Assembly (NCBI GenBank): GCA_030247885.1
Contig: JAPDRO010000012.1
Span: 62,001 to 126,000, forward strand
DNA from: Taxawa tesnikishii (nom. ined.)
Taxonomy: Eukaryota > Ascomycota > Dothideomycetes > Dothideales
Length of the DNA stretch: 64,000 bases
Direction of reading: 5' to 3'
How positions within the stretch are numbered: the first letter of the stretch is position 1; the number at the start of each line of letters is the position of its first letter. Of this stretch, positions 4,985 through 48,330 are shown piece after piece. Both the position numbers and the translations under genes were made by a program. The notes beneath the pieces are model-generated. The model was not told the origin of the DNA. It did not search any database and worked only from the letters and a program-made list of their open reading frames with translations.

Positions 4985-5345
4985 AGATGCGGAGGTCATA
5001 GACACATCTCCACCACACACGCTAGCAAAGGCGGTAAAGAGCTGACGTACTGAAGTCTCCCGGAGCCTTTGCAACTCCGAGCGCGCTATCGCTCACCGCC
5101 CTCGCTAGCTTGATTGGGAAGAAGGGGCGATACGCATGTACTTTTGTCCGGCTGTTCTACCTCTTCGAAACAACCGTTCAAGTACGACGGTGAGATCGTA
5201 GACTCGTCCGTGAATGGCCAGGCTGGTCGTTTCGCCAGACGTCCGAACAGGAGGAGGCCATCACGCTTGGCAGCGGCCTATTGGGGGGCCCGTTGAGAGC
5301 ATCAGCGCTCCGCTGGTCATCAAAGGGGAAAAATACTGGGTAAGG
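4985..5345 (+). repeat. Dispersed degenerate unit, copy A
   Basis: A decayed copy of a short unit found repeatedly in gaps of this window. It shares the block ctcaccgccctcgctag (near 5095) with copies at 34.8 and 35.2 kb. It also shares a terminal block around 5310-5335 (ctggtcatcaaaggggaa) with copies at 23.4 and 34.97 kb. Translated, the terminal block reads GPVESISAPLVIKGE, comparable to GPIGSIRALLVTKGE in copy B. Upstream, HASKGGK near 5030 resembles YASKSGK of copy C. The reading frame is broken between the two halves. I do not recognise the family. Confidence 0.55.
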
Positions 5346-5736
5346 GAATGACGGACAGCGGATGGTGGAATGAATTCATTAGTGACAGATGATTGATGGG
5401 GACATATCGTGAGCATGTCGACCTTCTGTACTCTATCGGCTCGGTGCCGAAAAAAATAAAAAATGAACAAATAAAACAATATGCGATTGCAGGCAATCAT
5501 GTGGGTGATTTGCCTACGCCCCTTCTACTTTGCAACCCTGCAATGGGTGGCCTTTGTCCAGAGATGCCCCCAATATGCAGAAAGAAAAAGCAAAAGTATC
5601 CTAATCTTTCACCCCAAACGTAATCCTACACTCTACTCTACACCAAAACCCGAGGCCACGGCCCCTCTACCCAGCAATACAACGTCGAACAACGTCGAGC
5701 GAAAGAAAGGCCACATCCACCATCGTTACTCCCCAC
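5346..5736. other. Intergenic region downstream of CAP, no gene seen
   Basis: A-rich sequence (aaaaaaataaaaaatgaacaaataaaac at about 5450-5480) between repeat copy A and the CAP stop codon at 5737-5739. It probably holds the CAP 3' untranslated region on the minus strand. No coding potential is visible. Confidence 0.5.
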
Positions 5737-7584
5737 CTAACCAGCATGCTCCACAATCTCACTCACAAGCTGGCCATGCTTAATGACAGTCCTGATCTGC
5801 TCGGGCAGCGGCTGTTCCCTGTAATCCTCCTCGTCGCTGCTCGGGGGCAAGTTGACATTAACACTCGTGCACTTGCTGGTGAAGATCTCCGTCCCCAGGC
5901 TCTCCTTGCTCAGATAAATGGCCGCGCCATCGACCTGGTCGAGCATGATGGTCGGCAGCGTTCCGAGAACCTGGAGGGCGAAGTTGGGGGCTTTGATGAC
6001 GTCGACGGAAGAGACGAGGGAGTCAATGATGAGGTTTGTGCGGGCGGAGTTGTCGATGGAGACGGCGTTTGCTTTGCCGATGAGGCGAATGGTGGTGTTT
6101 TTGCAGCGCGAGATGAGGATGGATTGCGTGATGGAGACCTCGATTTCGATGGGTTGTTGTGCGTCTTCGAAGTTTTCCTGAAAGAACAGGGTGTCAATCA
6201 ACACGAATGCATGCGACATCGATCTGATGGAGAGGAAAAGTACGCACGATGATCCACTTGTTGCCGTCGAGCTCCTTCTTGCCCTCCTTCTTAGGGGTGG
6301 CAGCGCCGGCTCCACGCATACTTGCTGGCTTGGGTTTGGTCTCCGGACCGCGACTCCTGCTCCTCTCCATCGCGGGCGCGCTGGAACGAAGCGATGGGTT
6401 CTTGTGTGTCATTTCGCTCTTATCGACCTTCCGCAGTCCTGCCGTAACCGCCTCGCCCCGGTTCAACTGGTCAAAGACCGCTCCCATGTCGCCTGCGCCG
6501 CCGCTCTTAGCTGCCGGCTGTGGTGGAGGTGGTGGTGCGTTGTCGAAGTTGGGGAGAGGTGGTGGAGGCGGTGGCGGTGGTGGCCCTCCTGCTGGTGGAG
6601 CAGGGGCAGGTGCACCACCAGCGCTCTGACCTGCTTGCACCTGCTTGAGAGCCGCTCCAAGCTCAAGCCCTGTGGGTGAGTTGTTCCACGTGAGACCCGT
6701 GGGATAGTGCTGTCTGATGTAGGCTTGGAGGGATTTCCAGAGCGAGTAGTACGACTGGACCAAGGCCACGTGCTTAGCATCCCTGGGCGTGTCTGTCAGC
6801 ATGGCGTGCTGTTGTTCTGGCAAAAGCAGTATCTCACTTCTCCTTGTACTCCTTAAGCACTCGGTTTCCGAAGAGCTGCACTCCACCCAGCACCTCAGCC
6901 ACATAATCTGCAGGCTTGCCCTCGAAAACAACCCATTGCAGCGCGCCCATACCCTCGCCAACCATGGCCAAGTGATCCTTGAACGGGGATGCACGGTTGG
7001 CTTCGCGGATGTCGTTCACTGTGCTCATCTCCTGCTGCAGGTCCTTGATCAACTCGGAGAACTGGGGCGAGGTCATGTCAGGCTTCTTGGCCTTGGTGCT
7101 GACGTAGAGGAACTGACGCTGGGCGACGAAAGCCCTGGAAACCGCTTGTGCCTGGTGATTCGAGCGTCAGCAGAACGGCGTGGCAGCTGAGAAGGTGCAC
7201 CAAAAGTACCTGCTCCGAAATCTGCTTGTCCAATCCCTCTCCTGCGGTGACGAACTTCTTGAGATCTCCGTTCATGAGGGTGTCCATGTCAGCAACGGCA
7301 GCTGGCAGGGCAGCCTGTTGCGGTGCTGGTGGAGGAGCGACGGGCTGTTGTCTGGAAGCGGCAGCGAGATCTGGCATGCTCGAGGTCTTGCTCTGACTGG
7401 CAGCGATGCCGCCAACACCTGGAGGAGGGCCATTGGCGAGGGACTGGTCAAAGGAGGTGGCCGAAGACGCGATGTCCTCCAGACGGGAGGTTGCAGCTTC
7501 TAGTCTGCGCACGAGTTGGGTCAGCGCATTGTCGGGAGCGTGGGAGGAGGGTCTGTCGGCGCGGTAGTTCAGGGTGGTGGACAT
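5737..7584 (-). CDS. CAP1/SRV2: Adenylyl cyclase-associated protein CAP/Srv2
   Basis: Four exons on the minus strand: 7584-7210, 7151-6838, 6782-6248, 6177-5737, giving 554 residues. CAP/Srv2 recycles G-actin and cofilin and links actin to the Ras-cAMP pathway. Domains in order: an N-terminal coiled helix (ALTQLVRRLEAATSRLEDIAS, cyclase-binding type); the helical folded domain ending LKEYKEKDAKHVALVQSYY; a poly-proline stretch near residue 310 that would bind SH3 proteins or profilin; a WH2-like linker; and the C-terminal beta-helix CARP domain starting GNKWIIENFED. Each junction restores family-typical sequence. I chose ATG 7584 (MSTTLNYRAD) rather than the in-frame ATG at 7659, because the intervening residues look like leader sequence. 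Length matches fungal homologues. A divergent MAK32-like gene lies upstream. Confidence 0.95.
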
Positions 7585-8394
7585 GTCGGGAAGCAGTATC
7601 AACAACGACGGGTGGGGTGTATGATTATGGTTATGGATTGTGATGATGAGAGTCGACAAACAGACCGTTTGATGAGGGTGGTGAGGTTGTGCATGCCAGT
7701 GTTGGCCGCCATGATGGGCGATGGGCGATGGGCGATGGGCGACGGGTGGTTTGAAGGTCAGCTGGCTATGTGCTATGTGTCGACCCGAGAGGAAGGTTCG
7801 ACGCGTAGTTAGTTAGGGTAGGTTTGCTGCAGCGAGAAGTAAGGGAGTCAAGTTGGCTGATTGCTTGATTGATTTGCTGGATTGCTTGATTGATCGACTG
7901 GTTACAAGCACCCGCAGCCCGCAGCCTGCAGCTTCCCCTGCCCAGCGACCGGCCACTACCTCCGTTCTCCGTTAGTACCTTCGGAATTCGAGGCGTTGGT
8001 CTAGACCTCACGCGAGGCTGATGCTGGTGGGGTTGCCGTAACGTAGCGGGTGACAATGGCGAGAGGATTTGAATGACTTGTTCCAAGCATATATATATAT
8101 ATATCACAGGGAGGCCTGCATGCTGCGTGCTGCGTGCTCACCGGAATTGGGAGTGTTTACTTTCGGACCAGTTCTTCTCAGCCTTTCTGCCTGAGCAACC
8201 CCGTGCTTCCGGCTTGTCCTGCCGAAGCCTTCCGAACAACCGAGCCGCTCTCCGTACTCTGTGCTCTGAATCCTACCGCTACCGCTACCGCTACCGCTAC
8301 CGCCATGAACTTTCCATTGTCTCTGTCTCAAGCGTCGCCTCGTCACCTCTTCACCACCGCCGCCTTGGGCCTTGAGGTCGACCACTTCCTCAAA
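7585..8394. promoter_or_regulatory. Divergent intergenic region, CAP and MAK32-like genes, with simple repeats
   Basis: An 810 bp shared upstream region between two divergent genes. It holds a (gatgggc)n tandem at about 7713-7743, repeats of ttgattgat near 7860-7895, an (AT)8 tract at about 8089-8104 that could act as a TATA-like element, and a (ctaccg)5 hexamer tandem at about 8273-8303. No further gene is visible. Confidence 0.5.
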
Positions 8395-9766
8395 ATGTCC
8401 GACACTCGTGCAGAGCAGATTGACTTCTGCACATTAGGAATGTTCATAATCGGTGGGTGAATCCAACTTCATCTTTCTTTCCTTTTTGGGAGTGTTGAGT
8501 TCCGTATCGGGAAGCGACATCTTTCTGCATACCACAGTCCGAAGCTGTAACCCCCTTTCAGTGACAGGCCCGCTTCACAGCACGGCAATCCGGGGAGCGA
8601 GAAGCGAGAAGCGAGAAGCGAGATATGGAGTTCAAGAAAACAATCGTAAACCGCATATCAATTACCGACCGCAACCGGCCTTTATCAACGTAACCACACC
8701 TTTGTCATCTCGCGCCAACACGTGCCGAACCATTGCTGAAGCCCTCCATCGCAGACGACATCTACCCCTCACCATTCTCGCCGGATCAAACACCTCATCT
8801 CAACATAGTCGGCGGCGCCGGGACTTACAGTGCCATCGGAGCGCGCCTCTTCTCCTCGCCCCCAACATCTCACGCCGCGTCGGCTGGATCGTGGACTGTG
8901 GTACAGACTTTCCTCCCGAGCTCCGCTCCACCATCAGCAGCTGGCAAACCGGGGTGCTCCTCCGCGAACGCAATGTCCTAACCACGCGCGGCTGGAACGG
9001 ATATGGCGCCAACGAGCATCGCGCCTTCAAATATCTGACCCCTAAGCTGCGCATCACCGCCAGCGATCTCAATCCGACGTTGCTGAGTTCGAAATCCTTC
9101 CATCTGATCTGCAGCCCGACGCGCTGCGCCGAGCTCGTCGAGAGTATCATGGCGCTACGCACTCCGTCCCTGCCACGTCCGCTCTTCATCTGGGAACCCG
9201 TACCCGACCTCTGCCTTCCCTCGGAATTGGAGAACACGCTCGCAGCCTTGCGACACGTCGACGTCATCAGTCCCAACCACGCCGAACTGGCCGCTCTCTT
9301 CTCCTTCGATCCCAACAGCAATGACGGAACCGAAAGCGTTAACCGCAGGACCGTCGAGGACTGCAGCCGCAAATTGCTGGCTTCCCTCCCTTTCCCGGGC
9401 CACACTGTCTCCATTGTCGTGCGCTGCGGCAAGGACGGCTGCTATATCGCCTCGCGACGCACACGCACCAGTACCTGGTTGCCGGCCTATCATGACCGGA
9501 CCCCAGAGCGTGTCGTCGATCCTACGGGCGGAGGGAATGGGTTTTTGGGCGGGTTTGCTGTGGCATTGGTTAGGACGGGGAATGTGGTCGAGGCGGCCAA
9601 GTGGGGCAGTGTGAGCGCTTCTTTGTGCATTGAGCAGGTGGGCGTGCCTGTGCTGGAGAAGGAAGTGGGTGGGAAAGGGGCAGGAGGGAAGGAGAGGTGG
9701 AATGGGGTTGTGGTTGAGGAGAGGTTGAAGGAGTTCCAGGAACGGTGCAAGAAGAATGTTCTGTGA
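8395..9766 (+). CDS. MAK32: MAK32-like PfkB carbohydrate kinase family protein, with one apparent frameshift
   Basis: Exon 1 is 8395-8452. A 302 bp intron (8453-8754) follows, then exon 2 from 8755. The junction yields FCTLGMFII-DDIYPSPF and then VGGAGTYSAIGARLF, the N-terminal signature of fungal Mak32-type PfkB proteins. The frame then breaks inside the five-C run at 8859-8863: GARLFSS is in one frame, and ISRRVGWIVDCGTDFPPELR continues in the next. One extra C would restore a 356-residue protein. The kinase C-terminus is intact (VVDPTGGGNGFLGGFAVAL, where most PfkB kinases have a GAGD-type motif; here the catalytic Asp position looks altered, as in other Mak32 proteins). Mak32 in yeast is needed for L-A virus maintenance; its substrate is unknown. 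I think the break is a sequence error, because the whole downstream part is conserved. It could be a recent pseudogene. Confidence 0.8.
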
Positions 9767-10611
9767 AGGAGTTCGTGAAGGTGTGAGATCTGAGGTTTGG
9801 TTGGACGACGTTTGGTTATTGAACAGCACACTTAGCGATGGCGTTTAGGTTGGAACTTTTGCACAGATTGGGACGTAACATATACATAATCTCGATGACA
9901 ACACGATCATGATAGCATCGCAGGCTTGGCCTATATACAGAATGAATGAGAGCATCCTTCACTCTGTGATTCATCACTTCCGCCTACAATCTCCGATTCG
10001 CGGTGCTGATCTGCAGCTTTAGAAATCTGGCTCCCTCCATTCACGCGTAAGAAGCGCAAGTGAGGTAGTGGCGTCCCATTGACTGACACTAGCATATCGT
10101 TAGTTACCAAAGGGGTCCGTCACGTATAGCTTTCTTAGTCCATCCAACAATTTGTTGCATTACGAAAAAGTCTGTAGTTGACGTTCCTACGCTAATGTTT
10201 GTGCACGATGGAGCAGAGTAGTCTATGCGGGTGAAACATGGAAAGGATGAACCCAAGGGGAGGGTGGACATCTCGAAGGACACTGGAAGGAATACGGAGT
10301 GAGATGTTGTACTAACAAGCGTTCCGATTCTTGACTCTCAACACTGGATCCGCGATCTGCCCTGCAGTGAGGAAGCGAGTTGTGACCGATGGACTGAGAA
10401 GGGCACGTTTCGTTATTTTCCCTCCATCCTTGTAAGTTTACACGCCACAAACTCGCTCCTGGTTTGGTTCAGTCGATAGTACAGACAGCCTTTTGTACAA
10501 TGATACACGTTGCCGAAAATCCATACGTTTACCGCAAACCCTAGCCTCGACGAAACTCTTTTGTCTTCCGTGCAAGTTTCACGAACGTCCATCCCAAGAT
10601 CTTCCGTTCTC
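9767..10611. other. Convergent intergenic region, no gene seen
   Basis: 845 bp between the 3' ends of the MAK32-like gene and the bL28m gene. Short open frames only. It probably holds both 3' untranslated regions and terminators. Confidence 0.55.
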
Positions 10612-11328
10612 TTAAACTCGTGCCCCAACAAGTACTTTGTCCTCAACCGGTTGTTCCTCCATAAACGGCGCGCCTTTGTCCCCCTCAGCACCCTCTCCTT
10701 CGATACTTTCCACCACGAACTCCTGCATGCCAGGCTCCAACATTGCCGCTTCTTCAGGCGGCCTGGTCTCTAACGCAAGCGCTGCGTAGTCCACCTCCGG
10801 CAGACCCAATTCCCTTCGCTGGGCGTTGAACCTCTTCTGCACCGTCTCCGTCGCCATCACCATACACCTGAGCCTCCACCCGCCCATCCCCAGCTCTCTT
10901 ATCCGCGCGCTCTTCTCGCCGAGGAGGTAGTTGTCAAGACCTCCCACCTTGTCAATGGTCCTCAGCACCCTTGTGCTGACCTTTACTCTGATTCCGCGGT
11001 TCAGTGCTTTGGAGAAGAGGTATTTTTGCTTGATGTTGGGATGCCATGATCGTCGTGTCTTGGTCTCGGTGTCAGGAGAGACGTTGTTGCCGAATCGGAT
11101 GCGTGCTCCTCCATACAGGCCGTTGTTGGATTGCTTGTACCACAAGGCCGGTCCATGTGGGTATGCGGGCAGGTTTGCGTGCGCTTCAGCGAGGGCATTC
11201 TTGTTCGATTTCCAGGCCTGGCAGGATGTGTTGGAGAAGTTGCGGACGTGGGAGAGGAGGCAGGACTGAGGTCGGTTGTTTGCGAACATGATTGTTGAAG
11301 CAGACCTGAGGGCAGATCTCGTGGGCAA
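10612..11328 (-). CDS. MRPL24: Mitochondrial large-subunit ribosomal protein bL28m
   Basis: Single exon, 238 residues. This is the mitochondrial homologue of bacterial ribosomal protein L28 (yeast Mrpl24). The core RARIRFGNNVSPDTETKTRRSW-type segment is clear: GGARIRFGNNVS near residue 74, then TKTRRSWHPNIKQKYLFS, and later the RVLRTIDKVGGLDNYLL element seen in fungal L28m. The N-terminus (MPTRSALRSAST..., Arg/Ser-rich with no acids) fits a mitochondrial presequence. A second ATG at residue 14 could be the true start. The acidic C-terminal extension is usual for the mitochondrial form. It is transcribed away from ISA1, and both products act in mitochondria. Confidence 0.92.
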   Translation of the reverse strand: MPTRSALRSASTIMFANNRPQSCLLSHVRNFSNTSCQAWKSNKNALAEAHANLPAYPHGPALWYKQSNNGLYGGARIRFGNNVSPDTETKTRRSWHPNIKQKYLFSKALNRGIRVKVSTRVLRTIDKVGGLDNYLLGEKSARIRELGMGGWRLRCMVMATETVQKRFNAQRRELGLPEVDYAALALETRPPEEAAMLEPGMQEFVVESIEGEGAEGDKGAPFMEEQPVEDKVLVGARV

Positions 11329-11686
11329 TTGCGGGCGTCGTCAAAGGCGTGTTGTTGTGATTCTATGTATTTGAAGTTTACCCTCGCATAGTCGGCTCGA
11401 GCAGGACTGTTCTGAATGCGTCGTGGTTGACGCTTTGCGAGTTGATTCCCAGAAGTTCGATTTGGACTTGCAGCTCTGGCCACTGTAGCTCACCGTACCG
11501 GGGCTGCGACTGTGAGCCAATCGGAGCCGCAAGGTTTCCGGTGACAACTGTGACATCGACCCGCATGTTCGGTCTGATGATTTCAAAGACAAACATCGCC
11601 TTCACAAACAACCTGCATTCCACCCCTGCACCTACGACACCCTTCGCAAGGACGACTTTCATATCATCCGGTCTGGTCCCTCTACC
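11329..11686. promoter_or_regulatory. Shared promoter region of bL28m and ISA1 genes
   Basis: 358 bp between two divergent start codons. It has no credible coding sequence and must contain both promoters. The two products are both mitochondrial, so bidirectional co-expression is possible; no specific factor site is evident. Confidence 0.45.
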
Positions 11687-12513: not shown

Positions 12514-12690
12514 TCTAAGATACCACAATACTTCAAGCAGCAGCAGAGGATGCCAATCCTACATGCTATCTTTGTTTGGAATTTTAGCACGTGGGCCATT
12601 TCTCCGTTCTCTGGAATTGGCGTTAAAGGGCATTTGACACCGGCGTCCAACAAACTTGTATGAGATTCACCACGCTGCATAGAACTAGAC

Positions 12691-22678: not shown

Positions 22679-22994
22679 GTTTGCGATGTGTGACTGGAAA
22701 GAATAGGAGGTGAGGTCGTTGGTCGGTTGTCGAGGGAGTTGTCTTTTCGTTCGGTTCAGCGAAATCCACACAGGACTCAAGGCTTTCAAAATCTAGTGGT
22801 GAATGCCGGAGTTTAGCCTTCCGTGTGCGCGCCAAGCCTGCAAGGACGCCAGCCCTTGCAACTCCACTCTTCACTTCAATCCAACACCACCAAGAGAACG
22901 ATGCACACTCGGGATATACTCATAACAACATCGACTGTTTGTTACCGATTCTTGTCCAAAAGGCTCCACCGTAGGAACTAACGTAGTTTGCAAC
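22679..22994. other. Upstream region of RPS1, no gene seen
   Basis: Short upstream region of the eS1 gene on the minus strand. It contains T-rich/CT-rich stretches when read towards RPS1, but no defined element. It merges into repeat copy G. Confidence 0.4.
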
Positions 22995-23440
22995 CATCTT
23001 CCGGAGCTGTAAGTACATTGAGGCATAGTAGAAACTTCTCATCACGCTACCTCTCACCGCCTCGGTCTCTAAGAGGGCAAGATGTGAATATTCAGGTGCA
23101 TGTCTTCGTCTGAGCATACTTGAATTTTTTTTCCCAAACAATTTCGGAAACGCGCGCATGGAACAATTCGATAACCTGATCGTCCATGCACGCCGTGTCG
23201 CGTAGCCATCGTCACGGTAAAACACTCGCCGCCTTCGTTGGCTCAGGATCAGAGTGAATGTTGTCGTATCCTGCTTCCAGCGCTCTCGTAACCACCCTTC
23301 CATACTAACACGCCGACCTCGTAATTGGTACCATCTTTCCGTCCTGGTCCCCGGGTCCCCAGCGATAGCAACCAGCCATGAGCTGGTCATCAAAGAGGGT
23401 TCATGCTATTGGGTTCCGAGCTATGTCCTGAAAAACTGTC
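22995..23440 (+). repeat. Dispersed degenerate unit, copy G
   Basis: A decayed copy of the dispersed unit. Near 23010-23060, tagaaacttctcatcacg followed by ctctcaccgcctcgg aligns with copy E (cagaaacacatcatcacc) and copy B (ctcaccgccctcac). Its terminal block at about 23375-23430 translates to HELVIKEGSCYWVPSYVL, which parallels the LVIKGEKYWV end of copy A. About 300 bp between the blocks is highly diverged. Confidence 0.5.
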
Positions 23441-28004: not shown

Positions 28005-28225
28005 TTCTCTACTCGAGACATCCTGCAATAGCCTCGTAGAAGTGTACAGTTCGCAGGTCGGACACTATTCCGCGGTGTGTCAAGAGTGGTTAACTGATGC
28101 CTTTGGTAACCAGCGGCGCCTGACACAATCAACGGGGCCGCTGAACCTAGACCAAGGCTTCCTCATCGAAGTATCTGAAGGGCACGATGTGCGCTCCTTG
28201 GAGCATTTTCGGCCGTTGAACCTTT
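28005..28225 (+). repeat. Dispersed degenerate unit, possible copy H
   Basis: Weaker candidate copy. The translated block STGPLNLDQGFLIEVSEGHDV (about 28128-28190) resembles GPISSIRHVLVTEGEDLKV of copy E in spacing and hydrophobic pattern, but the nucleotide match is poor. It could be chance. Confidence 0.3.
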
Positions 28226-28633
28226 TCTACGGAAGATGCGAACCGGCAAGGTAGAGTGCGGTGCTACTGTGTTTCAAGCAGCCGAGCTAGCGGAGGCAGT
28301 CAGGCAGCGTGGAAAGATATTTGTGTCGTGAGAAGAGTTAATATAGGCCATGTTCATCTTCGTTTCGCATCCGTGTTGTCTTCGCGTTGGCATCGGCAAG
28401 CAGACGTCATCTCACCTCCGCGTCGACAGCTGACCGCGCTGGACGCGTGCAACCCTCATTCCACATCCCACCTCGCTCGCCCAATCTGAAAGCAACCTAC
28501 TCATCAGCCGTCCGGCTTGGAGAGATCACAGACTGGCTAATTCAAATGCGCCGCTGCATCGCCGTCGTTACGCTTGTGGGAGAAGGCTTCAACATGCCCC
28601 TGGAACGCGACGACAAAGTCACATTGAAGAAAC
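28226..28633. other. Intergenic region, no gene seen
   Basis: About 400 bp between candidate copy H and the F-box pseudogene. Nothing recognisable. Confidence 0.45.
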
Positions 28634-30414: not shown

Positions 30415-30620
30415 CTGCTAGTGCGGTATTCGTCGTTGTGGCAGAAAGATGGGACCACCCCAGGAACCACATCGCCTTCATGAGCTTGGTGCTGGAAAAC
30501 ATATGCACGGACTGCCTCCGCTCTCTTCTCTGCTCATTTCAATGCCGCGCCACCTGTTGTGGCCCACTACCTGTGCGGCAACCCGCTCCATCTATCCGGT
30601 CGGTTTCATCGGTTGCACCA
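30415..30620 (+). repeat. Dispersed degenerate unit, copy D (5' unit of a tandem pair)
   Basis: Shares the block gtgcggtattcgtcgttgtggcag (about 30420-30443, cited in two pieces: gtgcggta and gttgtggcag) with copies E and B. Translated it reads ASAVFVVVAERWDHP, next to RAVVVVMAETHHHP of copy E. It lies about 400 bp upstream of copy E in the same orientation. Confidence 0.5.
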
Positions 30621-30814
30621 GCCATGCGCCGGTCTTTTGAGGAAGAATTTCGGAGGACATGGTCTGTCTGTTCCTGGTGAACAACAGCAGCTTGATGCTT
30701 GCAGCAAGGCCCCAAAGCGCTGTTCCAAAGCTGAACCGTATGGAGTACAAGCCTGCGTCCTTCACACCTTCGCAAACCCGGAAAGAGGGATTCGGAGCAT
30801 CAGGCTTTTCGTGC

Positions 30815-31075
30815 GGTAGTAGTTGTCATGGCAGAAACACATCATCACCCTGGCACTTTCACCGCTCTCCATAGCTTAGCCCTGAAGGATACACATGTTC
30901 GGACTACCTCCACCTTCTTCCCTCACAGTTCGAGCGTATCATACCCATCGGGCGCACTATACTATCGTCCGGCACTGACAGGTTGTGCGAAGGCTTTAAC
31001 GGTCCCATCAGCAGCATCCGCCATGTGCTCGTCACGGAAGGGGAAGATCTGAAGGTCACATGTCGTTGCTGTAAT
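30815..31075 (+). repeat. Dispersed degenerate unit, copy E (3' unit of a tandem pair)
   Basis: Contains the first block gtgcggtagtagttgtcatg (30815-30835), then accgctctccat matching the ctcaccgccctc block of B. It ends with a terminal block translating to GPISSIRHVLVTEGEDLKV (about 31001-31057). This is one of the best-preserved copies: the frame from about 30890 to 31060 is open. Confidence 0.55.
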
Positions 31076-31200: not shown

Positions 31201-34143
31201 TTACCTCCCCTTCCATCCTCTGGATCCCCCGCCCCCTCCCCTCCCCATCAACCCCCTCTCCTCGTCCTCCGTCAACGCCAGCGCAGCCCGAACGCTCCTG
31301 ACAAAATGACCCTCGCCGCCACACGTCTCCACAATGCCACTAACGACAAACAACCTCCAAACCTCCGTCGTCCTCCCCGGCACCCTACAGAAGAAGACTC
31401 TAGTCCCCCTCTCCCTATACCCCTTGACAATCTCCAACAAGACCTGGCTCGCGGCCGGATCCAGGCTGGTAACGCCGTGCACGTCAAAGATGACGTTCTG
31501 GTTGTGCTCGCTCCGCCTCACGGCCGGCAGGGCCGGGTGAGCGGCGCTGGTGCCGTGGGCCTCGATCCGCCTCAGCCGATCCTTCAGGCTGCCCGTGTTG
31601 GCGAACGTCAGCGGCTCGGGGATCTTGACGATGAGGCAGTGCGGGATAAACTCGGTCTCGCGCTCGCCCTCTGCGTTTTCGAACTCGGCCTCGGTGCCGG
31701 GCACGCGGCCGAGGATCTGGATGCGCGGGCGGGTGGCGTGCTTCATGAGGCGGAGGAGGGAGAGGCCGATGCCGACCGCGATGCCGATGCGCAGGTTCCA
31801 GAAGAAGGTGGTGAGGAAGATGAGCGTCATGAGGATTAGCTCCGAGTAGCCGGAGATGCGCCAGAAGTAGTGGATGTCGTGCGGTGCTTCTTCGATTAGG
31901 GAGTAGGCGACGACGGAGATCATGGCCGAGAGAACGCCTTTCTGTGGTCATAGGGTTAGCGGGTTGAGTGGTTACGGGGGGGAAGGAGAAAAGAGTGAAC
32001 AAGGGTGACACAACACACCGGAATGTAGTAAAAATACGGCAGCAGAAAGACGATGCAAAAGACACTGATAAGGCTCAGGAACACCGAGCTCATCGGCGTC
32101 TTCCCGCCCGTGCTCGCATTCACCTTGCTCCGGCCGTAGCCGCCGAACGCCGGCAGCGCCATGAACAAGCCGCCCAGGACGTTTGCCACGCCCAGCGCGA
32201 CCAGTTCGCGATTCGCGCTGACCGTCACGTCCTTGATGCCCTCGGCCTCCTCGACTTCCTGTCCGTCCTTGCGCTTCTTGCGCGTCACTTTGCCCGCGCC
32301 CGTCCCGAGACTCTTGGCCGCGACGCTGCTCTCGAAGAAGCCGAGCAGGGCGATGAGGAAGGCGGTGCTGAAGGCGTCGGTGGCGTGCGCGAGCATGGAC
32401 GGCCGGAAGGGGAAGTGCGCGCGGAAGGGCTTGCCTTTGGAGCGGATGTCGCCCAGGATGTCGAGGCCTTGCTCGTCCCAGGAGTTCTTCCACGCCAGCA
32501 CGGCGGAGAAGACGACGATGAGGAAGCGGTCGGGAATGTATGCTACCGAGGGGTAGCGGGGTTGGAGGCGCTTCTTGATCTCTCTAGGGGGGAAAGAACG
32601 ACGCGTATCAGTAAAAGGGTTGGGGGGGGGTTTCCCAAGGGGTTTTCGCGAAGGGGAAAGAAAAATTGGCCACGAGGGGATATATAACTCACCGCAAAAC
32701 CATGGTGATGGCGAAAGCGCCAAAGGACACCGCACACGTGAGTTTGTGCGCCCCGTGCCCGTGCTGGAGGAGGAAAATAATTTTGTCCAACGAGCTGCCA
32801 TGCGCGGCACCGCCCACATGGTTCGCCACGCTATCCAGTCCCATCTCCGGGATCAACTGGTCAACGAGAATCACGATGCCGATGGCGCTGATGAAGCCCC
32901 TCAGAAAAGGGCGGCTCAACACGCCGTCCAAGAATCCCAATCTACAGAGGCCTGCGAGTAGAATGATGGCACCGGAGAGACCGGTCACCGTACCCGCGAT
33001 CTGCGCATGCTTGGTCGTGTCCCAGTCGCCGTGGTGACCCCTGTTGATGTTCTCACGCACGACCTGGCCAGTCAGCAGAGAGCCGGCTGCTTCCGGTCCG
33101 ACGACCATCTGCGGACACGTGCCGAAGATGGCGTAGATGAACGGGTTGAAGACGAACGAGTAGAGGCCGTTGATGGGGGCTATATGGGCCAAGTTGGAGG
33201 CGTACGAGAGTGACATTGGAATATAGAAGGAGGCCATTGTGAGTGCTGCGACCAGATCACCTTGCAGGTATGACCATTTGTACTGCCTGATCCACTTTGT
33301 GACCGGCAGGTAGTAGTTCAGATACCTGCACAAAACGCTCGTAAGCCAACGAAGCAGAGGAAAAGAAGGAAAGAGAAGAAGAAGAAGAAGAAGAAGAAGA
33401 AGGGAAAAAACCCCTTTCACACAAGGGTAGGCTTGGACGACGGGGAAGTTGAACGTAAGGGAGAGATCAATATGGAGTGCTACATACATGGTCCGCGAGT
33501 TCTGCACGCCGTGCCGCTTTGCCAACCACTGCGTGGTGCTCCACTTCGATCTTCCGCCCAGCAGGCCATCGGTGACCGCATCACCAAGCAAGCCGTGAGT
33601 GTTATCGCCGCCCTCGGGACTACCGTGAAACCTCCCACCGTACCCATCTCTTGATTCCGAACTCGCAATGCTCAGTATACTGTCAGTGGTGCCATAGCCT
33701 ATGAGCCTTGGCCGCGGCCGGGACGAAATCGTCCCGTGGCTGCAGTTTTCCGACCCGCACCCTGACGCTTGATCCCAAAGCTGCTGCTGCAGCAATCGCG
33801 TGCGTACGTTTGGCTCCCCTCGCGTGTCCGTCGTACCTTCGACCTGCGTGGGGAGCTCACTTGGGTTTGCGGGAGCAAAGTCCTGCGAAGCGGGGTGGAT
33901 ACCGTCCTCCTCGAAATCCGGCCTGTTCTCGGGCGAAGGAGGATCGGAGGATCCGTTGGAGAGCGCAGACATTATTCTGGCGTCTTCCGGCGAGGCTGGA
34001 GGCATATGCGACTGTCGCAGACCGCTGGGGTTGACGGGGACATGCTGCTGGCCCGGCCGGAGGTGGGAAAGGGAAGAACTGCGTGAGTGGGAGGGCGAAG
34101 ACTGTCTTGAAGAGGCGCCCGAAGGCGGGTGGCTTCCTGGCAT
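31201..34143 (-). CDS. SulP/SLC26 anion (sulfate-type) transporter with STAS domain
   Basis: Four exons on the minus strand: 34143-33488, 33325-32693, 32583-32019, 31941-31201, giving 864 residues. It is a multi-pass anion transporter of the SulP family, closest in plan to the yeast YPR003C/vacuolar-type members. Residues 1-215 are a long Ser/Pro-rich cytoplasmic tail. The membrane domain starts YLNYYLPVTKWIRQYKWSYLQGDLVAALT and has VFNPFIYAIFGTCPQMVVGPEAAGSLL and PAFGGYGRSKVNASTGGKTPMSS. The C-terminal STAS domain runs from PEPLTFANTGSLKDRLRR through VIFDVHGVTSLDPAASQVL. Junctions: ...RTM-YLNYY, MVLR-EIKKRL and YYIP-KGVLSAM. The first intron (33326-33487) contains a long GAA/TTC tract. Substrate (sulfate or another anion) is inferred from family only. 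Confidence 0.92.
33374..33402. repeat. (GAA)n microsatellite inside a SulP intron
   Basis: About nine GAA units on the + strand, so a TTC/CTT tract in the sense of the gene. It lies between the donor (33487) and acceptor (33326), where it forms the intron's pyrimidine tract. Confidence 0.9.
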
Positions 34144-34714: not shown

Positions 34715-35010
34715 CACTAACACGCATGATTCGTCATTCTCTGATACGTGCGGTAGTTGTAGTCGTGAGGACGACAGACTCAGCGGTGTCACGCTGCTAC
34801 TCACCGCCCTCACTAGTCTGGCTTCGGGAAGGACATATGCGCCCACCTCTTCCGGCTCTTCTACCTCTCCGAAGAACTATGCCAAATCATTGCTCGTCCT
34901 GGCAACACAACCCGAAAAGGGCCAGCCAGCTCGTCGGTCCCATTGGTAGTATCAGAGCTCTGCTGGTCACCAAAGGGGAGTGCTTCATTCACCTTTTCGG
35001 GAAACACTGA
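34715..35010 (+). repeat. Dispersed degenerate unit, copy B (5' unit of a tandem pair)
   Basis: One of the best-preserved copies. An open frame from 34708 to 35010 (100 codons) spans the first block (gtgcggtagttgtagtcgtg near 34749), the ctcaccgccctcactag block near 34802 and the terminal block ctggtcaccaaaggggag near 34962. Its translation contains IRAVVVVVRTT, SRCYSPPSLVW, LPALLPL and GPIGSIRALLVTKGE. It has no recognised domain. Whether the frame is a gene remnant or chance is open. Confidence 0.55.
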
Positions 35011-35164
35011 GCAGATCGATTATTCCGCATTCCGTTTACGGTCTGATACATGCAAAGGCTTCCCGCACAGAGTCCTTCCCTCTCAAAAAGACCGAGGGAA
35101 AGTCAAGTACATGTACACCTACCAAAACTACGCTAGCAAGAGCGGTAAATTGGATGGCGCGATA

Positions 35165-35450
35165 GGAAGATGCCACTGCAATAGGCATGGTACTGGGAAT
35201 GAGGGCCGTTTGGGGGTCGCGCTACCACTCACCGCGTTCACTGGCTTCGATGGGCCGAAGCTATATACGTGCGGTTCTTCCGGCTCTTCCACCATCGCTT
35301 ACAACGCACACTCTAACCACAGGTGCTACGAGCGGTTTGCTCATGATGCGTTGCTCGCGATTTTCGTCAGGCCCCGTTGATGGTACGAGCACTCCGTTGA
35401 TCATCCAGGGGAGCGTTACATTCTCTTATCCGAGGGGAAACATCGTATGA
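35165..35450 (+). repeat. Dispersed degenerate unit, copy C (3' unit of a tandem pair)
   Basis: Lies about 425 bp downstream of copy B, same orientation. The open frame 35187-35450 translates to SRYHSPRSLAS, YIRAVLPALPPSL and GPVDGTSTPLIIQG, which line up in the same order as SRCYSPPSLVW, LPALLPL and GPIGSIRALLVTKG of copy B. Sharing block order and translated pattern supports common origin. Confidence 0.55.
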
Positions 35451-35586
35451 GCCGACCATTGCTACAACAGCACAGTGCCATGAACATTCGTATACCCACA
35501 CTTCTTCCCAGCCCTCTCATAAGTACAGACTGGTTCGGCCGAGAACGTAAACAAAACACGGCCCCGTCCCTCACGACGGAACTCCC

Positions 35587-40464: not shown

Positions 40465-43400
40465 GCTTGCGGAGAAGTGTTTGAGGTTGCAGACGATTTA
40501 CGTTGCAACGATGGGCTGTTTGAGCGTTAGAGGGGGCTCTCCAACAACTTTATATAGGTGAATGGCAAGAAAAGCTAAAGGTGTCGTTGAGGGGAGGGGG
40601 CGCGTAAGGTGATAAACGTGATGGTGAATGGCGGGCAGGTTGAGGTGAGAGATTAAGCTTACCTAGAGGGTAGTTGGTGGTGAGGTAATACGCAGGTGGT
40701 GATGTCGAGAGAAGTGGGCCGGCGGAAGCGTTAAATGTTTGAGGCTGTTGTGTGCAGGCTGGATGTTTTGGAAGTTGAGGCAGATGAACGTCGAAACGGT
40801 ACGTATATGTAGGCCAGGCAGCAGGTGGTAAGGGAGGCCTCGCAACTTGGCAGTTGGTTCCCGATGCAGCAGGAGTAACTGTCGGTGCTGACAGAAACAG
40901 AATCTCAACGCTAACGGTGGAGAGTGTTGCAGTAGTTGCTGTTTGCACGAGGGGTAGAGGGGTTCCAAACCAGCGTTCTCGCCTCCAATAGTCGCAGGCG
41001 AGCAAGATGAGCCGTTGGCGTGCTGGTTCTGCTGGAGATGATGCTCGGGCGCACGTTCTTGGGATTCGATGTGTGGACGTTGGAGCGTTGGCTTTGGAGC
41101 GTCCTAGAGGTGAGCGTTCCAGGAGTGCAGGTGAAGACGCAGCGCAATGCGCCGAAAGGGAAAGGGCGAGCCCGCGAAGATGTACCAACGGCAAACGTTA
41201 ACTAGCAGTGGGACTGAAGTCACTGGGGCTCCTTGGCACACCCTCCAAAGGAAAAGCCCAAGCAGCCTGCCCGGCCCATTTCGAGGTAGCACGTCAGTGC
41301 TGCAAAACGTTATCCAGATCGCCGGGTGTGAGATGTGCAACAGGGGTAGGGAGGCCGGCGCGACTGCACGCTGCAAGAATAAATGCGGCTAACGTTAGTG
41401 AACGGGTCTTGGTGTCTCCGCTACCACCGTGCCAATCACGTACGCATACGCATACGCATAGCAGTCGCGAGCTTTGCGACGACCCCCTGCGCCCGCCGAA
41501 GGACCCGTCCACCCTCGTACCTAACCGCCTTTGACGCTAGCACACTCATGCCATTTCGAGCAGCCGACACGCGACAGACAGTCCAGGGCAGCGATAGCCT
41601 TTGCGACAGCCTCGCTAACCTCGGCGTCCGCGCCGTTGAGGGGGCGCTCCTTACCACGATCCACCTCATCCCACTCCTCCATTCGGACTGGCCCGGGCCT
41701 AGGTCGCTGTTTCTTGCTTTTTTCCTCGCCAACGGCCAATTCGGTTTCGAGACAGCAAGGGAAAAACGAAAAAACTGCCCGACGTTGCGAAAAACGACCA
41801 TTAATGCAATTGATAGTGCATGGCCGTACTGTGACCATTTATTTGTTTATGAACAGAAGGGTCCAATTTAATGACAATAACAATGCCTATCAGACACGAT
41901 TCACAATTCCAAAGCACGCCCGCACTGCTGGGACTCTGCCTCGCGCTGGCTGTGGCTATCGCTGTGGCTAGTGGCAAGGCCAACACGATGTTTGCGCTCT
42001 AGTTCTGTGTAGTTTAGACGCAGCGCCGCCAATGCGGTTTGCGAGCAAGGCATTGCGGGCGTAGGATCTTCGCCCGTGCCCGAGTCCTTGGTCATGAGGG
42101 CACGAGCAAGCAGGGATCGGCCTGCGTGGATCGAGTCGTACGCAAGACGCAAGATTCCCTTTGGCGAGTCCACCCAATTCTCACCAGTTGACTTCGACCC
42201 TACCGCTCACCGCTCCACAAGACTCGGCGTGGCCCGCTAACCTTCTTCTTCCCTCTCCTCATTTAGCAATATCCAAAACACACGACGGCCGTTGTCGACT
42301 TGCGCTGCGGCGTAATTTCTGCTACAACTGCTCATTTCCCCAAACATCATACAGGAGCAGTCATCGGCCTCTATAAACAGGAGGTCCCTTGCCTCAGCTG
42401 CCTCCACGTTTGCAACGCTCAAGCATGCAGATCATACCGTCATCCACCACCCTGCATTTGTGATCTCCTTTGCACCGCACCGTCGCCTGCACTGTCTGCG
42501 TACGCATCGCCTCCGGCATAACTAACTCACACTGCTGGACGCAAAGCGCGTGCGCGCATGAATGAAATGCAGGCACTGGCGATACGCAGCCGCGCACTTG
42601 TACACCACGGCAATGCAAAAGTAATGTTGAGCTCCACAACCGACGAATCGTCGTGCTGCAGTTGCTCTTCCAGCCCACAGGATAAGCTTGGCAGCCACCC
42701 ACCGCACGCAATGCAGAGGATGCAGGACGTTTGGAGTTGCCGCGAGTCAAACTGGGCCGCCCGTAAATCCGCAAAGCGAAAAAGTGAACCACTCACGGGA
42801 CAGAGATGTAACTCAAATCATCTGCACTTGGCAGCCCTAACAACCGCCGGACCATCCCATGTCGAGACACCCCTGTGCAAACTAACCCTCCAAGGTCAAG
42901 TTTCTGGGTGCAAAACGGTCCCTGTCCGGCCATAAGAGAGCCGACCGAAGGCAGAGGCTAACCCTTTTCAATCCGGCATGCCCGATTCCTTCTTCTGCCA
43001 TGGCCAAAGCAGGACAGCTGCCTATAGCCGGCATCAGAAAAGAAAAAGAACACGATGCTCACCCTGGTTGCTGCGTCTGAGACATGACCAATCTGCGCTC
43101 CCTCAGCCTGCGCGTTATCCGATCGTACCGGTAATCCTTAACGAGCGTGTTCTCTCCCTCATTTCACCTGCATAGCATCGCTGATTGCTGACGATACACT
43201 TCGGAAGACCCCAGGTGGATCCTGTCCGCAGCGCAGCATTCAGCACGTATTTGGCACACGTGGGCAACCAAAATGCTCTACCTAACGCTCAGAGACTTAC
43301 GGCCGGCGGTTCACTCCGTAGTATTGCCATCACGCAGCCTGCGCTGGAAGTGAGCGATGCCAAATACCAGAGCCAAGCCGGGTGAGGATGTTCGTTAGAT

Positions 43401-45942
43401 CAGCAAGCCCACTGCGCGTCAGCCCTTGTTAGCGCAACGGCGGATTTCGACAGATCTGTCCGCTGCTGGATCAACGCTATGCCGTGTCAGGGAATTTTAG
43501 GCTCCTTACGGCAGACCTTGGCTCAAAATTGCAACTGTGGCTGGTGGGAGACATCGATGATGCTGCCCGAAAGGTGGTGTTCTTTCCCTGCACGTAGACG
43601 ACGGACTGCAGATGAGTGCGATCTCCCCTCTGCCATGATGCTCAGCGAGCAGCGGCGACACATCACATTGCATGATCAAAGACATTGTCCATCGCAGTTC
43701 GTTTAACATTAGCGATCATCATGCCATTCAGTAGACCGCGGGCCCGATGCCGCTACTTTGGGACGTCTGAGGGACGTATGTGTTAATCAATACGCAAGCC
43801 ATCTTCATGACCTTTGCTCCACACGAACTTGTACTTGTGACATCGACGCCAGTGATATCTGCGCACCCTTCTTCGCCTCTTCGAACGGGTGACGATTATG
43901 AAATGGCAACAACCATGGTGCTGGCGCCTCTTCTCACCGAGGAATCATGCGACGCCGGCCGTCTCACAATGGCCCGCCTCCCATCGCCACGGACAGGTGT
44001 CACAGGGACCCCTTGCACTCCCATCGCTTGGCGAGCCGTATGACTGCCTTACTCTTGTGTGGTCACCATCAACTGGACGACAGGCCGTGCCGGGTTTGTT
44101 CCGCGATGAACCCTTTCAAAAGCAGCGGATTGAGTTACAGCGGCAGCATCGGCACGCGTCTGCGCGCATCAATACTCTAGCATCGGTGGAGATGTAGAAA
44201 ACACAGCCCGCGTAGAGCCGGCAGGCCTGAGTCACCACAACCTCGTCAAGAGACCCTCTCGGGAATGACCAGTGACGACTTCTGAAGGGCCACGCGACTG
44301 CGAACTCTATCTCACCGCCCAAATGTCTCAGATCGTGGTGTCGTGTCAGGAGAACTCTCGCGACTGGGCCGAGGTTGGCGGTCGCAATGCGCGTCCACGG
44401 AGAAATATTAGCAAGGAGAACGATGGCAGCTGTCACGAATGAGCTGCTGCGCTGCGGATGCTGGCGACTGTCTTGCTTGCAGGGATCTCTTTCTTGCAGG
44501 GATACGGGGTGTGCGACAGCAGACTAACAGATGACGCATATGACTGGCTGGTAACGGCTTGGTACCGGCTGAGGGGTAAGGTATCGCTGCCGAACCAACG
44601 GTCCTGCGTCTGGGGCGAGCTGACTCGATGTGTGGGAAATATTCTTCCCAGGGCGCACTCTTCAGATCGCCTAGCATGAGCACTACGTACCGCCCGGGAC
44701 CGGCCCTTTCTGATCTCTGGAAGAGCAGAGCGAGCAGTGCGACATCAATCTGCGACTTGCGCGACGTGAAGAGCACAGCATGCTGCATGCTGCATGCTGT
44801 GCGCAACGATCATATCTCACATGGCCGTTGGAAAAACGGCCCTTCCGTGATCTACATTGGCAACATCCGTCCTGCGGACCCTCGACACGTTCACTTCTCA
44901 TGATCCACCTCCGCTCCTCCCCTCCCTCTCTATCACGCAGTCACACTTCGGCGCACATTTAGTTTGCAGGTTCTTGGCCTCCTTGCTGTCACACGACCCT
45001 GACCGACTCGACTCTCCACCTCTTCCAATCCTGAACGCGCAAGCAGAGAGACGGGCTAAGCGGCTAAGCAGAAAAGGGCCTGTCTATGACGCCCAGATCT
45101 AAAATCTCGACCCGTCAACGAATCAAATCTCACGCTTTCAGGCAATTTTTGTCGCAAAGTCGGCGCCACGAGTGGCTGTGATCAACAACCTCACCTCCTA
45201 AGCAGCCTAGTTTCTCTCTGGACCTTCACTAGCATACACCAAAAGAGCTTCCTCTCTGACCGGAGCTTTTGCAAGTTGGACGACGTCCCGTTCAAACCAA
45301 ACGGTCCTTCTCATTCACGGTGGAAGGGTCCTCACGGAGCAAGGTCCGCATTTGCGAAGTGTCCAGTCCCCATCTCGCGCTCGCACCGACATGTCATGGA
45401 CCCTGCCAACCCATCGAGAGAGGCTCACTTGCAAACTCAAGATCGGCGAGTCAGCGAGACTCGCCGCCTGGGACGCAATCTCTTTACGCGAACCATTGTT
45501 TACGTGAAGAGGGGCACGCGATCCCGCGATCGTTCCGTCCATCGTGTGTCCTCGTATGATGAGACGGTGGCCTCGCATACACCCTCGATCTTGTGCTAGG
45601 TGCATATGCGAGACCTATCACAGCACGTTGGGACGCAACTGCGTGCGGGACCTTGGTTCCTCTCCCGTGCACTTGCTCCAGCTTGGCATTTGGACGTCTG
45701 AAAGGAGTAAACACACCGGACCGCACTGCAGTATACTTGTGCGAACATTCCGCAAGTTCGTGAGGGTACGTCTAGGCCATTGCCTGAAACGGCATCGAGT
45801 CATTCCCGTGTACGGGCAGCTGTCAGCCACACGGCGACCCTGCAGAGTAGCGATGACCTAATCCGTAAGTCGCAGGTGAATTACGACTGCATATGCATGC
45901 AAGCCTTACGCTTCCTCACTTCTTCCGGTGCACTCTCCACAG

Positions 45943-45998
<56 letters not shown>

Positions 45999-46745
45999 CA
46001 CTCTCCTCCTTCCGCACCCTGTCTGCGTCCCTCGGCTCAACCAACCTCTCGCTGCCAGCCACTGATCAAGTATCCCTTTGCCCCCTCCTTACAAGGATGT
46101 CTTGATGGTAACCTGGACATCTGACACCCACTTCACCTCCCCTGCTTCTCTCCTACCTCCTTCTTCTTTCTGTCAAACTCGGCCCTGCATCCCTGTATAT
46201 CCTGGTCATCTGCCAGCGACGCAGGGTCAGGAAGCTTGTTTTGACATATGGATATACGGATCCCGACCCTTAACGAGCCCGAACTACTCATCTGATCTTT
46301 TCGATGATCACGCCACCAGCACTGATATTGAACAGGGAGCATCTTCCGCCTCGTCACACGATCCGGCCCATCCGTGCCCGTGCACATGAAAAATAATGAT
46401 GCATCGCGAGCTTGACGGCTGCCGGAAGATAAACAGGCTTTCACGTAGAATTTTAGGCAGGCTCGGCAAGCATGCAGGATGTCAGCGGTATGAGTAGACC
46501 CCTACGCACCACGATTCGCCGAGTCGTGCGCTCGAACCCCTCCTCCAACATTGTTGCCCAGCCGAGACTGGCCGACTGGGCAAGTGTCGCTGTCATCGAT
46601 CCGAAACCGATTTTGCTACCACGGCTGCTCGACAAGACCTGGCCCACTCTGTAACGGGGTTCTGCGACCTTTCCCATGCCCCTTCCTCAGTATTCGTACA
46701 TTTTCGCAAAACCTCGAGTGCAAGCTTATTGTACAAGACACACAG
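40465..46745. promoter_or_regulatory. 6.3 kb gene-free region upstream of flbD
   Basis: The longest gene-free stretch in the window. Open frames are many but short and not protein-like; the largest (minus strand, 40550-41194) is Ser/Pro/Thr-rich and probably the flbD leader region. The next gene at 46746-47320 points its 3' end into this gap, so the whole region is upstream of flbD only. It contains (tacgca)n at 41441-41460 and a long (CA)n run at about 45943-45997. I see no tRNA, repeat-family copy or transposon in it. A long promoter, a long untranslated leader or a non-coding RNA are all possible. Confidence 0.45.
45943..45997. repeat. (CA)n microsatellite
   Basis: Nearly perfect dinucleotide run of about 25 CA units on the + strand, ending acgcacacca. 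It lies in the gap upstream of flbD. Confidence 0.95.
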
Positions 46746-47320
46746 CTAAGTATACATGCCCACGAGGGCCGACAGTTCCGCTTTCAAGTGTTCGTGCCTC
46801 TCCAATAAATCATAATACCGCTCCTTTATGAACCGACGCTTCTCTTTCTCCTTCTCCAACGCCGCGGACAACGTGGCGATTTTCTCCTCCGCAATCTCGA
46901 GCTGCGATACGTGGCGACGAGGCGTTGCGGCCGCTGCCGCTGCCCTGGTGGCGGAAGGGTCGGGGATTCTCGAGGGAGTCCTGTTGCGCAGGGGCGTTGT
47001 CAGCATTACCGGGGAGGTGGTGAGTTGCTTGAGGAAAGTTTCCGAATCGGATTTCATAGTTGGTTGGGGGAGAAATGCTGTTTTTGCGACTGGGTACTTA
47101 TTTGTCCCGAAACAAAAAAAGTAGTCGAAAGAATCGGGCATTCTACTTACTGAGGTGGGCGAGGGCCGGCTTTTGCTTTCGCGGTCTTCTTGCCTGACTT
47201 TCTGGCCGAGCAGGCGGCCAGTCCTGGCGTAGAGACGCGTACGGGGGTTGGTGGCGGCGCAGAGTATGTGACTTCGATGAACCCTTGATGCCGGCTCCTG
47301 GCGGCGTAACTGTCAACCAT
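46746..47320 (-). CDS. Small coiled-coil protein of unknown function
   Basis: Proposed exons on the minus strand: 47320-47151 and 46980-46746, with a 170 bp intron (gtaagt...gcaacag), giving 134 residues. I do not recognise it. The first exon is MVDSYAARSRHQGFIEVTY then a Pro/Lys-rich part (SGKKTAKAKAGPRPP). The second begins TPSRIPDPSATRAAAA and ends in a clear coiled coil (QLEIAEEKIATLSAALEKEK, KERYYDLLERHEHLKAEL). The splice restores frame exactly. An alternative is that only the second part is translated, from MKSDSETFLKQ at about 47057, since that frame is also open. The moderate confidence reflects this choice. Confidence 0.55.
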
Positions 47321-48124
47321 GGTGATTATGGTAGTGACGGTGAGATGGTGAGGGATCGTGGCGGTTAACAAGAGTGACTGTAGCGGCGGGCAAGCGGACG
47401 GTTTGGTAGGTGTGGTCCCTTCTGTCTTCTTCGAGTCTTGGACCGGGTCACTTGACCTCGTACGTGTGTTGCGTCATGGAGTGGATTGGGATGGAGGGTG
47501 AGATGGGGACTATACCCACGGTTTGTTTTGCTCAAAGGGAAGTGGCTTCTTGGTTGTTTGCTCGTTTGTTCTCCGTTGCTGTTGCCGCTTTCCGCATCTA
47601 TGATATCGCGCGGCATCTGCTACTTGCGTTCTTGTTTCCTCGTCTGATGCTCTCCGCCCGTGACTAGGCCCGGCACTACCAAGATACATCCTCCCATTTC
47701 CCGCCAACGAAGGCGGCGAGTGCCGAAGGTTCTGGCAGACCGTAACCCCTAGCACGCTACGCTCGCCGCCCTTAACTAGCATCGTTCCGCAATGGAGATG
47801 AGCAATCCCAACCCCCTTGCTGTATCCATACCGATTATTACTACACCATCACAACGGAGCACGCACAGTATGCGGCAACAGCCGGATGCTATCGAGCCAA
47901 TCCAGAATCCCGTCAGGAGTTCAAAGACGAATGGCCACAACAGCCGGGTCCTATTGACTGTACCAGCCTCCTAGCTGATTTTCAAAGGGAGATAGAGTAT
48001 TCCAACAGGAGGTCTGTGAGCATCAGGACCATCTATCTTTACATTGCCTACCAGTGCTTAGCTGTCGCCCTCTGCATCAGATGAAAAAGCGTAACCGCAA
48101 GCCATTCGGACGTATGTTGAAGCA
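47321..48124. other. Intergenic region, no gene seen
   Basis: Upstream of the small coiled-coil gene. No credible coding sequence. Confidence 0.45.
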
Positions 48125-48330
48125 TGACTGAAACGTCCCATCACACTACTCATCACCGCTCTAACCAGTGCAGACCTCGTTAGATACATACACCCGTCTC
48201 CTTCTCTGGTTTCGATCCAGACTTCGGTCGACTGTTCTAAGACACTGGGTTATCCACCAGATGGGTCGTCGACCTCGAAGAGAGATAGATTACGGTCCAT
48301 CGGTTGTGTCAGCGGTACGTTGGGTCCTGA
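48125..48330 (+). repeat. Dispersed degenerate unit, possible copy F
   Basis: Contains ctactcatcaccgctctaaccagtg (cited in pieces: ctcatcaccgctct and aaccagtg, about 48146-48170). This aligns with ctactcaccgccctcactagtc of copy B, and is preceded by gaaacgtcccatcac like the gaaacacatcatcac of copy E. The terminal block is too diverged to be sure. Confidence 0.35.

Follow-up and report, generated by a model that had tools for sequence, protein, structure and literature searches.

A family of degenerate two-block repeats in a 64-kb window of apparently fungal nuclear DNA

The short interspersed nuclear elements (SINEs) known as CORE-SINE and Deu-SINE combine a conserved core domain with a variable remainder, while miniature inverted-repeat transposable elements (MITEs) and foldback elements are short, non-coding, and situated near genes on both strands. 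Mitochondrial double-hairpin and repetitive hairpin elements are compact intergenic repeats built on hairpins. The 64-kb stretch of DNA analysed here (hereafter, the window), which looks like nuclear DNA of a filamentous ascomycete, contains a dispersed and strongly diverged repeat unit with two conserved blocks. All results rest on this one window, to which the searching of fungal genomes was confined. With MITEs and foldback elements the units share their shortness, lack of coding capacity, proximity to genes, and presence on both strands, and some have an inverted arm; however, they have no shared terminal inverted repeats, and the arm is found in three copies only. The mitochondrial elements differ in that the present units are nuclear and longer, with just one hairpin having any support. 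SINEs differ in having a tRNA or 5S head, RNA polymerase III (Pol III) boxes, a tail, and target duplications, none of which is found in the units (the last in excess), and one conserved block instead of two.

According to PMC5063351, AfuSINE2 and AfuSINE3 of A. fumigatus measure 140-493 bp and 259-343 bp and, like these units, are short, non-coding, and dispersed. Fungal introner-like elements and the stwintrons of Hypoxylaceae are described as symmetrical repeats (PMC8469720; see also PMC4457414); they resemble the units in being repeated, partly self-complementary, degenerate, and present in filamentous ascomycetes, but are introns within genes, whereas the units are intergenic and have a second block. 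No matching family was found among the matches listed in the open-access literature, four short motif strings included; Dfam, Repbase, and most subscription papers lie outside that search.

The repeat family and its copies

The two-block repeat family is real. Its five core copies (A, C, D, E, and F) pair with each other in a low-stringency self-search of the window and align, and each is recovered by nhmmer with a model of the other four (expectation values, E, are listed below). Among 12 copies compared by Smith-Waterman alignment in the forward sense, 39 of 66 pairs outscore all 60 dinucleotide shuffles, against 2 of 66 when one copy is reverse-complemented. A model of the whole unit has 12 window matches of at least 14 bits, five of them its training copies, and two block models have 13 and 12 (11 training copies each), while no match of this score occurs in 21 controls (20 dinucleotide-shuffled windows and the reversed window). 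Leave-one-out searches with block 2 alone recover 11 of 14 copies above the best non-family match and miss F, H2, and K; F is supported by the whole unit, and H2 by a whole-unit model trained without it. The 12-copy Smith-Waterman, flank, and 13-copy hairpin shuffle tests leave out unit K.

A full unit of ~190-290 bp consists of block 1, a spacer, and block 2. Block 1, at the 5' end (~40 nt), has the consensus ATCACGCTAn2-4CTCACCGCCYTCnCTAGCTTGG, and block 2, at the 3' end (~45 nt), the consensus GGTCCCRTTGn...CAGCn5GCTG...CAAAGGGG; in 13 copies they are separated by 105-171 nt of nearly unalignable spacer. The blocks follow the order given in an earlier note on this DNA, and profile and leave-one-out searches confirm real copies near its intervals A, B, C, D, E, and F and near 48 kb. 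As for its two weak candidates, 48125-48330 (+) corresponds to unit H2, while 28005-28225 (+) overlaps unit G, which is on the - strand. Overlooked there were H1, I, J, J+, Am, X, and K (at ~1.8-2.0, 4.5-4.7, 10.1, 47.7-48.0, 51.0-51.3, and 56.2-56.6 kb). The copies, with the partial elements beside them, are as follows.

1836-2030, - strand: unit K, the weakest member (block 1 ~1969-2030, block 2 1836-1885); covariance model E=0.065; block-1 match at the right distance, E 1.1 over the whole window and 0.0045 in a local scan; block-2 leave-one-out E 6.1, not recovered
4547-4733, - strand: unit Am; block-2 leave-one-out E 1.9e-4
~4999-5062, - strand: inverted partial block 1 at the 5' edge of A; E 0.01, own complementarity z 4.1
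5047-5336, + strand: unit A, core; leave-one-out E 2.6e-12
10072-10117, + strand: X, block 2 only; block-2 leave-one-out E 3.7e-4
23016-23062, + strand: B1, block 1 only; E 3.2e-5
23194-23410, + strand: unit B; block-2 leave-one-out E 0.0045
28083-28340, - strand: unit G; block-1 match E 0.0069, block-2 leave-one-out E 5.5e-4
30416-30689, + strand: unit C, core; leave-one-out E 1e-12
30809-31058, + strand: unit D, core; leave-one-out E 1.1e-12; closest relative is C
34746-35009, + strand: unit E, core; leave-one-out E 1.4e-21; least diverged, with the shortest terminal branch
35104-35166, - strand: inverted partial block 1 directly upstream of F; E 4.1e-6
35171-35447, + strand: unit F, core; leave-one-out E 1.1e-11; block 2 alone not found when left out
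~47684-47722, - strand: inverted arm at H1; E 0.0052
47729-48004, + strand: unit H1; block-2 leave-one-out E 5.8e-6
48112-48359, + strand: unit H2; E 2.7e-4; block-2 leave-one-out E 2.2, not significant
51006-51258, - strand: unit I; block-2 leave-one-out E 0.0013
56158-56397, - strand: unit J; E 1.4e-7, block-2 leave-one-out E 0.015
56476-56579, + strand: J+, block 1 only, head to head with J; E 7.6e-5

Block 2 is carried by 14 copies, nine on the + strand and five (K, Am, G, I, and J) on the - strand, which contradicts the claim that the units always have the same orientation; both block-1-only copies (B1 and J+) are on the + strand. Gaps often hold two units, arranged directly (C/D, E/F, and H1/H2) or head to head (Am/A and J/J+), and B1 and B share a gap as well. 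The gap between the sulfate-transporter gene and MTC6 spans 34.2-35.6 kb. No unit overlaps a Pfam-matched open reading frame (ORF) among the 40 of 92 ORFs of at least 150 aa that were scanned, but some overlap unassigned stop-to-stop ORFs (e.g., 22920-23405 on the - strand and 34817-35380 on the + strand). Within gaps between genes of apparently the same direction, most units (B, E, F, G, H1, H2, and K) seem to be antisense to both neighbours, unit I being the exception and J ambiguous, an impression gained with gene models from ORFs and Pfam alone.

The 200-bp upstream flanks exceed all 60 shuffles in 2 of 78 pairs: A-F, whose similarity lies in the additional inverted arm, and E-G, with a margin of one point. 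The 200-bp downstream flanks do so in 1 of 78 (C-H1, where the match runs into units D and H2). As the flanks are unrelated, the copies are not segmental duplications. Copy-to-copy identity in the trimmed alignment has a mean of 0.42 and reaches 0.56 at best. In both reconstructed trees the terminal branches are long and few groupings are supported; C and D are sisters in both (support 78 and 0.84), no other neighbour pair is, and the two trees otherwise disagree.

Outside fungi, the block-1 pattern has 17 matches in a bacterial contig collection (~30 expected by chance) and six in a viral one, while these 23 loci reach no more than 13.3 bits (E 1.1) with the block-2 model and the block-2 pattern has no match in the viral collection.

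Slow blocks, fast spacer, and a hairpin in block 2

The blocks have changed more slowly than the spacer. When 13 copies are aligned in all 78 pairings, z scores average 4.60 in block 2, 2.44 in block 1, and 0.95 in the spacer, and 40, 28, and 12 pairs, respectively, outscore all 50 shuffles (X, in which block 1 was not found, is omitted from the block-1 and spacer counts, and B1 and J+ from the block-2 counts). A star-like simulation with one rate, matched to a block-2 z of 4-5 and run in three replicates per setting, yields z of ~9-13 for a 120-nt spacer, with 57-74 of 78 pairs above shuffles. The observed spacer value lies far below this prediction of uniform decay, which indicates that the blocks are constrained relative to the spacer, either in an active source or in each copy. 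Ascertainment favours the contrast, as most copies were found via their blocks, but hardly explains one so large; the block borders were set by hand here and in the stability and divergence-correlation tests.

Divergence of block 1 and of block 2 is correlated across pairs (rho 0.32, p 0.004), as expected if both belong to one unit. Block and spacer divergence are uncorrelated, both across pairs (rho 0.13, p 0.27 and rho 0.07, p 0.56) and at the level of copies (rho 0.21, p 0.48). In the core copies, both the blocks and the spacer have higher scores, but these copies had been chosen for aligning over the whole unit.

Block 2 can fold into a hairpin (CCC.TTGn...CAGCn5GCTG...nCAA.GGG) with modest covariation, which is suggestive at p ~0.01-0.02. 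In 13 copies, 79.0% of the cells form pairs, compared with 75.1% for shuffles, of which 7 of 500 are as high. Pairs with double changes number 7 against 3.3 (2 of 500 as high), while the count of further pair types lacks significance (93 of 500 as high). Pairing drops to ~55% or less once the partner is slid. A hand-anchored test with 14 copies gives p 0.016 for canonical and p 0.008 for Watson-Crick pairs. The signal comes from the outer stem (p 0.009) and not from the inner one (p 0.43 by itself), and G-U pairs outnumber A-C mismatches (22 vs 13). Related sequences may, however, exceed such pairing shuffles without any structure. Fold stability averages z -0.60 (-0.79 on the opposite strand), five of 14 copies lying below -1, compared with -0.13 and 11 of 60 for random 46-mers. 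Unit K keeps a stable stem (GACTAGC..GCTAGTC, z -3.17) despite its enlarged loop.

A hairpin in block 1 was rejected, its covariation being at p 0.31-0.78 and its stem unstable (mean z +0.52; 14 rows, with J+ and without B1). A scan of the whole window against Rfam (4227 families, E up to 1) has no match to the units, its sole match being a sub-threshold snoR38 elsewhere, and the region of units E and F has none at E up to 10.

Origin of the units

The best reading, which we consider evenly poised, is that the units form a non-autonomous family of interspersed repeats, long inactive, in a filamentous ascomycete. Two arguments favour it. The copies have the look of a single unit that was dispersed in both orientations, their branches being long and independent and their flanks unrelated, and it would be extraordinary for a 64-kb stretch to hold 14 or more functional copies. 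The earlier note's suggestion of a non-autonomous element fits. The units would have spread as mobile DNA or RNA, by RNA copying or DNA transposition, and the blocks may have been retained as the cis-acting parts that a helper enzyme required during the active period of the family, the spacer being free to change. Dispersed between genes on both strands, each copy would then have decayed independently. Several observations weigh against a dead repeat. No hallmark of transposition was found, flanking repeats being at chance level and a shared terminal inverted repeat, tail, or internal promoter being absent from the copies; nor does Pfam assign any of the scanned ORFs to a transposition protein. 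All copies are mutually distant, so that no recent amplification is visible. Copies of different age should show linked divergence of block and spacer, and none is seen. Finally, selection acting on each copy in place would equally give slow blocks beside a near-saturated spacer.

The last point leads to the principal rival, a tentative one that we hold to be rather unlikely: the units could be working elements kept in place by selection, either as multi-copy structured non-coding RNAs or as DNA sites, with the two blocks as their functional parts and the spacer free to vary. It is kept alive by the rate contrast and by block and spacer divergence being uncorrelated when the divergences of the two blocks are correlated, and the block-2 hairpin adds to it through pairing above shuffles, the stem of K that is stable in spite of its larger loop, and the excess of G-U over A-C. 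Hairpin stability is, however, just mildly better than in shuffles, the inner stem and block 1 give no structural support, further pair types are not significant, Rfam has no match, and the density of copies would be very high for functional genes. A related reading, which we regard as unlikely, sees in the units a previously undescribed and very abundant class of two-block nuclear elements of filamentous fungi, held between genes by selection. Such elements might consist of an RNA hairpin with an upstream recognition block, or of a chromosomal DNA site, and would occur about every 4-5 kb in the window.

A canonical SINE or MITE family in decay is improbable, even though size, dispersal, both orientations, and intergenic location fit it and A, F, and H1 carry an inverted partial block 1 upstream. 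The defining features of SINEs, MITEs, terminal-repeat retrotransposons in miniature (TRIMs), and known RNA families are missing where clearly testable. Strict A and B boxes of Pol III promoters occur in none of 14 copies, and loose ones (A box in two copies, B box in one) at or below expectation. ARAGORN found no tRNA in the window and the units have no tRNA head; Rfam is likewise silent. There is no A or T run at a consistent place in 14 copies. The longest flanking direct repeat averages 5.00 against 5.22 expected (ten copies, with poorly defined ends and hence low power). Flank comparisons reveal no terminal inverted repeats shared among copies, and the inverted arm, found beside A, F, and H1 only, is not general.

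Other candidates were rejected. A general foldback of the 5' half is seen in A, H1, and weakly in K, F, and E, but own and swapped arms do not differ (p 0.47, 15 copies) and the direct-orientation control is as high (mean z 0.50 vs 0.31). For TRIM or long terminal repeat (LTR) pairs, neighbours would be closest relatives, which holds for C/D alone; E/F and H1/H2 are not sisters in either tree. Block 1 of A resembles the 3' end of 18S rRNA, but alignments and models give no support for such an origin: 14 copies score z of -1.07 to 2.39 forward and -1.26 to 1.63 reversed against the 18S 3' segment, every forward score is equalled or exceeded by at least 5 of 200 shuffles, and the segment goes unmatched by four profile models. 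The copies also show no excess of repeat-induced point mutation (RIP) indices over the gene-free background, a bias that the earlier note had proposed to look for. TpA/ApT averages 0.83 in 12 copies against 0.71 (sd 0.31) in the background, and the RIP substrate index is 1.14 against 1.23; both of the usual cut-offs (high TpA/ApT and low substrate index) are passed by 3 of 12 copies against 43 of 300 background stretches.

Copy E is flanked by an 8-bp direct repeat, TCTGATAC (34740-34747 and 35042-35049, one side at the left edge of the unit). It is possibly a target duplication, but one such match in ten copies is near chance, and the word occurs once more on the + strand and twice on the - strand of the window.

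Repeats derived from introns, of the introner-like or symmetrical stwintron kind, are very unlikely. In 10 of 15 copies, the end of block 1 is a YAG in a fixed position (against an expected 0.24 in 12 random nt, though this place lies within the conserved block), 11 of 15 have GTA[AGT] upstream of it (expectation for 82 random nt, 0.40), and A, F, and H1 have symmetrical arms, as the elements described in PMC8469720 are symmetrical repeats. Those elements are, however, within genes, whereas the units are outside recognised ones, and block 1 is tied to a second block ~105-171 nt beyond.

Still less probable are relics of a small protein-coding gene family. The earlier note had suggested such a decayed family from the character of the translated blocks, which seemed better kept than the DNA. 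Mismatch is flat over codon phases in block 2 (0.489/0.375/0.457, p 0.40, in the 7 of 14 copies that align with at most one gap) and in block 1 (0.413/0.342/0.397, p 0.84, 13 copies), and neither suggestion is borne out; this test is cleaner than earlier pairwise counts of indels and phase, which used lax gap costs and are indicative only. Block 2 departs from a length of 45 nt in eight of its 14 copies, measuring 46 nt in six, 44 nt in one, and 50 nt in one, so the frame is broken inside the best-kept block, the source of the supposed GPI-x-SIR-x-LLVTKGE peptide. That block happens to be open in a frame starting with GP(I/V) in A, D, E, F, and J, but no match at the Pfam curated cut-off exists among 18 ORFs over copies C-F (in eight the best E is 0.044, and the other ten have no match at E up to 0.1). 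A fortuitous similarity among intergenic stretches, which the three copies of 14 lost in the block-2-only search (K, H2, and F) might suggest, is scarcely conceivable, and for the core family it is already refuted by leave-one-out E of 1e-11 to 1e-21 and by empty control windows.

Genomic setting and meaning of the family

In keeping with a filamentous ascomycete, Pfam domains found among the 40 scanned ORFs include Dsc3, MTC6, SDE2, Ras-binding/SAM, and kinase domains, and the top PDB matches of an eS1 ORF are chains 7r81 and 5oql, which we take to be from Neurospora and Chaetomium, respectively. The snoR38-like match, a candidate C/D box RNA at 53532-53613 (- strand), adjoins the ORF with the SDE2 domain and remains below threshold, scoring 39.4 bits (E 0.0063) where the gathering score is 45. 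Microsatellites are present at 56850-56948, (AAG)n of 99 bp, and at 45944-45998, (CA)n of 55 bp. A GAA run at 33351-33402, within a sulfate-transporter gene, reads as a leucine run and looks intronic. A local direct duplication (57767-57819 and 57848-57900, 53 bp, 81% identity) apparently has no relation to the repeat family.

If the units are an old mobile repeat, they represent an unclassified family easily missed by repeat annotation at a mean identity of 42%. If they belong to an undescribed class of elements, its blocks far outlast the remainder of each unit, which is rewritten around them. The contrast between two slow blocks and a near-saturated spacer might reflect either the cis-acting parts of a vanished non-autonomous element or a hidden functional class of intergenic sequence.

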